64,000 nt of DNA from the NCBI GenBank assembly GCA_947476895.1, contig CANJRX010000001.1:62001-126000 (forward strand), written 5' to 3'. A program made the translations under genes and the position numbers. The first letter of the stretch is position 1. Each line of letters starts with the position of its first letter. The notes below the pieces were generated by a model that worked only from the letters and a program-made list of their open reading frames with translations, ran no database searches and was not told where the DNA came from. The stretch comes from Fidelibacterota bacterium. GTDB lineage: Bacteria > Pseudomonadota > Alphaproteobacteria > Rhodospirillales > Rhodospirillaceae. Of this stretch, positions 19,790 through 21,083 are shown one piece after another.

Positions 19790-19878
19790 GAAATTGAGGT
19801 CAGGACCGAAGTTTCGGGGTCCATCTGCGCGGACGGGCGGGGTCGATGGTTCGGAAAATCGACCCTGACCTCAATTTC
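19790..19878. repeat. Palindromic MITE/REP-like element
   Basis: A perfect 15-bp inverted repeat (GAAATTGAGGTCAGG at 19790-19804, complement at 19864-19878) encloses two smaller hairpins. One is around GACCGAAGTTTCGGGGTC and one pairs GGTCGA with TCGACC. No coding sequence lies inside. The architecture fits a REP/MITE-type element mobilised in trans. No target-site duplication is obvious. Confidence 0.55.
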
Positions 19879-19907: not shown

Positions 19908-19976
19908 AAAAAAATCTTCTCCCGCTCTACCAGCAAGCCCCGCCGTCAGCGGGTGCTGGGGCCGAGCGGGAGAAGA
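19908..19976 (-). terminator. Strong minus-strand terminator hairpin
   Basis: Perfect 12-bp outer stem (TCTTCTCCCGCT with its complement, 19915-19926 and 19965-19976) plus an inner CCAGCA/TGCTGG and CCCGC/GCGGG stem. On the minus strand it is followed by seven T (19914-19908). No annotated minus-strand gene ends here, which is the main argument for a small RNA. Confidence 0.75.
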
Positions 19977-20106
19977 CGAAACCCTGACGTCACCGGGGTA
20001 GGATTTGACTCGTGGGCAGTGACGATCAAGGCCGGAACAAGGTAAATTCTGAACACGGTCTCGAGGTGAGGCATGTGCCTATGAGGTTGCTACGCTCCTG
20101 TGTTGT

Positions 20107-20123
20107 GTGGGAATAATTCCCAC
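20107..20123. promoter_or_regulatory. Operator-like palindrome A, GTGGGAATAATTCCCAC
   Basis: Perfect 17-bp palindrome centred on 20115, just downstream of the predicted start of the minus-strand transcript. It closely matches palindrome B; the centres are 63 bp apart, six turns of B-DNA. It is a likely binding site for a dimeric regulator. Confidence 0.65.
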
Positions 20124-20133
20124 GGACAACCGT

Positions 20134-20162
20134 AACGTAAGACGTGCATCGGGTCCTGTCAA
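20134..20162 (-). promoter_or_regulatory. Minus-strand sigma70-type promoter between the two palindromes
   Basis: On the minus strand TTGACA (20162-20157) is followed after exactly 17 bp by TACGTT (20139-20134). The -35 is a perfect consensus and the -10 is moderate. Palindrome B lies upstream of the -35 and palindrome A near the predicted start point, a typical repressor arrangement. Confidence 0.5.
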
Positions 20163-20169
20163 CAAAAAA

Positions 20170-20186
20170 GTGGGAATATTTCCCAC
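20170..20186. promoter_or_regulatory. Operator-like palindrome B, GTGGGAATATTTCCCAC
   Basis: Second copy of the motif, with perfect GTGGGAA/TTCCCAC arms and centre at 20178. It lies 25 bp before the DUF6502 start codon, so a bound protein could also block that gene. Confidence 0.65.
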
Positions 20187-20210
20187 GACGTGTCATACAT
20201 ACATATAGAA

Positions 20211-21083
20211 ATGGCAGACCAAACCCCCATTGCGACTACGCCTAAGCCGCTGATCGGCGCCGTGAAGCGGCTGCTGCGGCCGTTGGTGCGTTTGCTGATC
20301 TCAAAGGGTATGGGTTTGCCGGCGCTGACCGAGCTTTTGAAGCAGGTGTATGTAGATGTGGCGCTGACGGAATTTCCGAACGACGGAAAAAAACAAACCG
20401 ACAGCGGCATCAGCATTCTCACAGGCGTTCACCGCAAAGACGTGAAGCGCTTGCGCGCACAGAAAGACAAAGGCCCCACGACACCGCGCAGCGTTAGCAT
20501 CGGCGGACAACTGGTTTCGCGTTGGGTGGGCTCACCTGAGACGACCGATAAAAAAGGCCGCCCCTTGCCGCTACCACGTCAAGCCGAGTCGCCGGGTGCG
20601 CCGTCCTTCGATGCCTTGGTCGCGGGTATTTCCACGGATGTGCGACCTCGCGCTGTGCTGGAAGAGTGGGTGCGGCTCGGAATGGCGCATATCGACAAGG
20701 AAGACCGTGTGGTTTTGAACCATCTCGCCTTCGTGCCCCAAAAAGGTCTTGAAGAGAAAGCATTCTACTTGGGCCGCAACATTCACGATCATATTGCGGC
20801 GGCGACCCACAACTTGCTGGGTGAAGGTAATCCACAGCTGGAGCGGAGCGTACATTACAGTGCACTGACGCCCGAATCGGCGGCGGAATTGGCCGAAGCG
20901 GCGCATAAATCGGGCATGGAGGCTTTGCTCGATATCAACCGCCTGGCCTTGGAGCTCGCCGCTAAAGATAAAGGCAAGGAAAACGCCACCCGACGCGTCA
21001 ATTTCGGCTTATATTTCTACAAGGGTTCGTCGGATTTTAAAAAGTTACGGTTAGAGACTGAATCAGAAGATTCGGACGCTTAG
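20211..21083 (+). CDS. DUF6502 family protein with HTH-like N-terminus
   Basis: 290 residues, cytoplasmic, of a family without known function. Residues about 15-85 are helical. The segment GISILTGVHRKDVKRLRAQ looks like a helix-turn-helix recognition region, suggesting DNA binding (my inference). The C-terminal half (about 110-290) is mostly helical with charged surfaces and ends acidic (LETESEDSDA). The ATG at 20211 starts MADQTPIATTPK. A GTG at 20190 would run through palindrome B's flank and is less likely. The ribosome-binding site is weak. The DUF5666 lipoprotein gene follows after 33 bp, so the two are probably one operon. Confidence 0.7.
   Translation: MADQTPIATTPKPLIGAVKRLLRPLVRLLISKGMGLPALTELLKQVYVDVALTEFPNDGKKQTDSGISILTGVHRKDVKRLRAQKDKGPTTPRSVSIGGQLVSRWVGSPETTDKKGRPLPLPRQAESPGAPSFDALVAGISTDVRPRAVLEEWVRLGMAHIDKEDRVVLNHLAFVPQKGLEEKAFYLGRNIHDHIAAATHNLLGEGNPQLERSVHYSALTPESAAELAEAAHKSGMEALLDINRLALELAAKDKGKENATRRVNFGLYFYKGSSDFKKLRLETESEDSDA

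Follow-up and report, generated by a model that had tools for sequence, protein, structure and literature searches.

Palindromic sites conserved upstream of DUF6502 genes suggest an autoregulatory circuit that includes a divergent small RNA

Introduction

Two matching 17-bp palindromes lie just upstream of a DUF6502 gene in the window (the whole stretch of 64,000 nucleotides that was analyzed, to which all coordinates below refer), raising the question of which protein reads them and which transcripts they control. The gene (20211..21083, plus strand) encodes a 290-aa protein that belongs clearly to the Pfam family PF20112, scoring 114 bits against a gathering cut-off of 27 and covering positions 4–259 of the 268 in the model. 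Searches of Pfam, NCBIfam, and PDB retrieved no relative that would give DUF6502 a function; the PDB sequence-profile search in particular produced nothing credible and no detectable solved relative, and scans of viral contigs recovered no relatives either. A literature search found no paper on DUF6502, nor one on GTGGGAA/TTCCCAC as a bacterial operator. Transcription factors controlling both themselves and a divergent gene are a known kind of system, and a preliminary description of the locus had proposed that DUF6502 may bind the palindromes and regulate itself. Here, we examine this proposal by comparison across genomes, with the family and class of the source organism taken from kinship labels.

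Results

A palindrome pair linked to DUF6502 genes

Operator A (GTGGGAATAATTCCCAC, 20107..20123) and operator B (GTGGGAATATTTCCCAC, 20170..20186), neither of which is assigned to a strand, lie exactly 63 bp apart from center to center, as had been described, and 24 bp lie between the last base of B and the DUF6502 ATG (20211). A scan of the whole 2,707,585-bp assembly returned exactly two perfect GTGGGAA-N3-TTCCCAC matches, A and B themselves, where base composition predicts 0.011 per genome; the motif is not scattered across the genome. Within the window, A and B also form the sole pair of identical-arm 7-3-7 perfect palindromes at a distance of up to 300 bp. The occurrence of this pair at DUF6502 is far beyond chance.

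The same pair was recovered in orthologues of the same genus and the same family. Of the 73 genomes of the GTDB family, 38 encode DUF6502, and the perfect motif was detected in 34 of these 38 versus none of the 35 DUF6502-negative genomes (Fisher 1e-16). Three of the four exceptions are genomes of genus g7 carrying degenerate sites with the same 62-bp spacing, and the fourth (G018) encodes a DUF6502 protein without its first ~30 residues, downstream of a region that looks rearranged or misassembled. When orthologous loci were inspected, the motif was found upstream of DUF6502 in 37 of 38 within the family, where shuffled sequences would yield 0.03 and none of the 317 control windows held one, and in other families at 14 of 36 loci, compared with 0.1 in shuffles and 2 of 316 control windows. 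A conserved palindromic operator in the own promoter, one of the features by which palindrome-binding autoregulatory HTH (helix–turn–helix) transcription factors are judged, is present at these 37 family loci, in other families, and in Alphaproteobacteria; the palindrome also precedes the DUF6502 genes of Azospirillum, Methylocystis, Pseudoroseomonas, and Microvirga plasmids. About 60% of the sampled DUF6502 loci outside the family, Rhizobium included, carry no clear motif.

An evenly sampled survey of the class found a perfect site in 7 of 337 genomes, six of which belong to the 15 that encode DUF6502 (Fisher 2e-8). A lone perfect motif in a genome without DUF6502 (G338) falls inside a reading frame and was taken as chance. 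In two of the six genomes (G110 and G422), DUF6502 is not adjacent to the perfect site, which instead precedes a different gene, and these sites are possibly further targets. The first (L233, 1995-2011) precedes a gene for a small protein and the second (L234, 2037-2053) one for a protein with glycine/aspartate-rich repeats. Altogether, the comparative data strongly support a linkage of the A/B palindromes to DUF6502.

A conserved predicted small RNA on the opposite strand

The preliminary description had placed a divergent promoter between the sites, on the minus strand, with the composition TTGACA-17-TACGTT. Both hexamers were found there, the −35 at 20162-20157 and the −10 at 20139-20134; what had been overlooked is the predicted transcript of this promoter, a conserved small RNA (sRNA). 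The predicted sRNA comprises ~220 nt (19908..20127, minus strand), its start being deduced from the −10 and its end from the terminator. Its 5′ half (GGAGCGUAGCAACC...GUGUUCAG; 20034..20104, minus strand) is highly conserved and, according to alignments and individual folds, mostly unpaired, which makes it a likely base-pairing region. This half is followed by a conserved hairpin (19982..20033, minus strand) with a GUCAC/GUGAC stem and the loop ACGAGUC..CCUACCCC, in which 4 of 6 core pairs show compensatory changes, and by an intrinsic terminator (19908..19976, minus strand) composed of a hairpin of 13+ bp (19976-19915) and 7 T, with compensatory changes in 7 of 13 pairs. Taken together, hairpin and terminator exhibit such changes in 11 of 19 pairs with 97% of cells paired, a level reached by 0 of 500 shuffles, and slid controls gave 1-5.

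A covariance model built on this RNA (R1) recognized 37 of the 38 DUF6502-positive family genomes at E<1e-20 and none of the 35 negative ones, and found no copy beside DUF6502 genes outside the family. Weak R1 matches in G036 and G070 were discarded, their scores being far below those of true copies and their positions inside long reading frames. A small protein was rejected as an alternative to the RNA since no reading frame is conserved across the orthologues, so that the element combines its own promoter, a terminator, and a covarying structure with the lack of a conserved ORF, as expected of structured sRNAs in general. A covariance search of Rfam 15 with the sRNA produced chance-level matches only, with no family at the gathering score, and a known sRNA or riboswitch was accordingly dismissed.

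Two further observations concern this region. Extra copies of the sRNA occur away from DUF6502 in G094 and G095 (L108 and L109), where the palindromes are decayed and no terminator hairpin is apparent. Additionally, a further large inverted repeat (GAAATTGAGGTCAGG...CCTGACCTCAATTTC) occupies 19790-19878 between mnmC and the sRNA terminator and encloses a smaller hairpin around CGCCCGTC; it is present in one copy in the genome and conserved in the genus.

Promoter geometry and the direction of control

The sRNA promoter is preserved in 36 orthologous loci, where it reads TTGACN (once TTGATA)-(16-18)-TAnnnT or close to it. The −35 (TTGACA in the window, 20157..20162, minus strand) begins with TTGAC, once TTGAT, in all 36 loci, and the −10 (TACGTT, 20134..20139, minus strand) fits TAnnnT in nearly all of them, with a spacer of 16-18 bp. 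A mechanical sigma-70 scan left this promoter unlisted in the present genome because its −10 is weak here. The operators occupy fixed places around it, nearly all loci following the layout B-(7-9)-TTGAC-(16-18)-TAnnnT-(10-11)-A, and in 34 of 36 the distance from the −10 to A is 10-11 bp. In the window, B lies 7 bp upstream of the sRNA −35 and A spans approximately +5 to +21 of the sRNA. On the DUF6502 side, 26 of 36 loci have a −10-like hexamer 7 bp after B (predicted in the window as CATACA, 20194..20199, plus strand, a weak match in this genome), which indicates that the −35 region of this gene's promoter coincides with B. As the ATG follows this −10 by 5-12 bp in the close relatives of the window, the DUF6502 mRNA is predicted to be leaderless. 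In genus g2 (L026, L059, L061, and L062), a short and possibly leaderless upstream ORF, for example MNTNHPCAQDT, ends near or over the DUF6502 start, an arrangement that suggests translational coupling.

In established promoter architecture, sites over the −35 and just past the start, as B and A respectively appear to be, are typical of repression, and it is from this geometry alone that repression by DUF6502 is read. The arrangement could also be that of an activator: B, centered ~51 bp upstream of the sRNA start, would act as a class-I-like site for DUF6502, and A would limit output at high protein levels. The 7-9 bp between B and the sRNA −35, with an A/T tract in between, and the weak sRNA −10, as seen in activated promoters, fit such a role. 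However, nearly all loci have a near-consensus sRNA −35 (TTGACN), A occupies a blocking position at ~+5 to +21, and B also lies over the DUF6502 −35, a blocking position that recurs at a second target of genus g2 and G022 described below; we thus regard activation as unlikely, if the most serious of the alternatives.

A looping repressor, which the preliminary description had favored, finds less room in these data. Dimers at A and B would touch across 63 bp, or six helical turns, and the conservation of paired sites and the confinement of all 36 spacings to 5.8-6.3 turns agree with that. The A–B spacing nevertheless varies from 61 to 66 bp, shifting with the 16-18-bp promoter spacer and the flanking gaps, and its total variance (2.06 versus 1.79 for the summed parts) reveals no compensation that would preserve helical phase. 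Moreover, spacings in other families are ~28-54 bp, and a 63-bp DNA loop is stiff. Since the spacing is the sum of promoter parts, looping is not needed to explain it, and we consider it improbable.

A second putative target

The seven g2 genomes and G022 conserve a second site with the same arrangement of palindrome, 7 bp, and −10, placed before an RNA-like element (CGTGCCCGTCAGCGCATGGCCGGAC...GTCCGGCC) that is strictly conserved and lies ~66 nt downstream of the palindrome (L051-L056, L058, and L064). The site lies in the convergent intergenic region of O-acetylhomoserine sulfhydrylase-like and ureidoglycolate lyase-like genes, named by sequence resemblance. No Rfam family matched the element, which on its layout is a probable second target of DUF6502.

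The DUF6502 protein and its recognition helix

The preliminary description had pointed out an HTH-like segment in DUF6502 (TDSGISILTGVHRKDVKRL), and structure prediction lends it some support. The N-terminal model, of mediocre quality (pLDDT 59), places a helix at 54-61, a turn, and a helix at 65-76, with pLDDT ~70-75 in this segment. The structural neighbors of this weak model are nearly all HTH DNA-binding domains at Z ~5, including CAP, NsrR, TrpR, IclR-type, IscR, DeoR, and sigma region 4; a Foldseek search with the same model returned no match below E 0.8. The full-length model, built from three sequences, is poor (pLDDT 38). Downstream, DUF6502 has a conserved operon partner, a DUF5666 protein identified by profile match (PF18914; 21117..22283, plus strand), and the DUF6502–DUF5666 operon was also found in Azospirillum, Methylocystis, Rhizobium, and Pseudoroseomonas (L226-L229 and L231). 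Repeats of a DGIGGTGI motif are present in the DUF5666 proteins here.

The HTH-like segment varies together with the site. Outside the family, all loci with the motif have HRK[DE] in this segment (14 of 25 with HRK[DE] versus 0 of 11 without). Base 6 of the half-site changes from A to T as the predicted recognition helix changes from VHRKD to LQR(K/R)D: of 190 half-sites accompanied by His, 187 have A at this position, and of 24 accompanied by Gln, 21 have T. In a second clade, formed by paralogues that carry TGLQR(K/R)DI, the sites read GTGGGTA-N3-TACCCAC or GTGTGTA-N3-TACACAC instead; because most of the covariation comes from this one clade (8 loci), it does not amount to many independent events. 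With this in mind, the pattern suggests that DUF6502 itself reads the site.

Were another transcription factor to bind the palindromes, DUF6502 would be merely one of its target genes. Such a reading draws on the fact that direct binding by DUF6502 is deduced and that the protein is without a solved relative detectable by sequence, and it has to contend with the lack of the motif from every DUF6502-negative family genome, its position upstream of DUF6502 in distant classes, and a half-site that tracks the DUF6502 helix; we hold it to be about as improbable as looping. That the palindromes are RNA hairpins (terminators or protein-binding elements) rather than DNA operators is very improbable: B with T6 on the minus strand does score as a terminator-like hairpin and A would fall in the sRNA 5′ end, but the arms are invariant within the His class instead of covarying, the loop has just 3 nt, and B is left out of both transcripts, whose predicted start sites lie downstream of it.

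Discussion

As the motif is linked to DUF6502 and the half-site tracks the helix, an HTH autoregulator is the most likely identity of DUF6502, and the earlier suggestion that it binds the palindromes to control itself stands as the best reading of the comparative evidence. We consider it rather probable that DUF6502 acts as an HTH repressor of its own operon and of the divergent sRNA through A and B. DUF6502, presumably as a dimer, would bind the palindrome GTGGG-A/T-rich-CCCAC; when placed on B it would block RNA polymerase at its own DUF6502–DUF5666 promoter, and when placed on A, just past the sRNA start, it would block the sRNA promoter. Release of the repressor by a signal would then allow the sRNA and the operon to be expressed together, and the sRNA would probably pair with mRNAs via its conserved unpaired 5′ half. 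The sRNA is probably a main regulated output of the circuit.

A bolder proposal, to which we give even chances, makes DUF6502 the founder of a new bacterial transcription-factor family in which the operator can be read from the recognition helix (GTGGGAA from VHRKD and GTGGGTA from LQR(K/R)D). Its chief outputs in the present GTDB family would be new sRNAs (the divergent one and the second one of g2 and G022), so that DUF6502 would be a dedicated sRNA regulator. The DUF6502 family, its operator, the covariation of helix and half-site, and the sRNA all appear to be undescribed. If the circuit is as proposed, a Pfam family scattered widely in Pseudomonadota would gain a function, a binding site, and residues that may set its specificity, and would be tied to a new conserved sRNA, bringing a protein and an RNA that both lack a description together in one regulatory circuit.

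Among known systems, the Qrr sRNAs of Vibrio harveyi quorum sensing reportedly form a feedback module of transcription factor and sRNA, and share with the proposed circuit the placing of a regulator and an sRNA in one control loop; in the DUF6502 case, by contrast, the sRNA is the divergent neighbor, and no homology was found through Rfam. The protein itself is a clear member of PF20112, for which operator, HTH, and targets are newly proposed here. Classical autoregulatory HTH repressors of the LacI, IclR, and DeoR types have their operators in a divergent intergenic region. DUF6502 has no sequence relation to them in Pfam or PDB searches, yet its HTH segment LTGVHRKDVKRL resembles the LacI-type LAGVSxxTVSRVL pattern, and the palindromic operators over the own and the divergent promoter are alike in both; whereas the divergent gene of those repressors is an enzyme operon, at the DUF6502 locus it is an sRNA.
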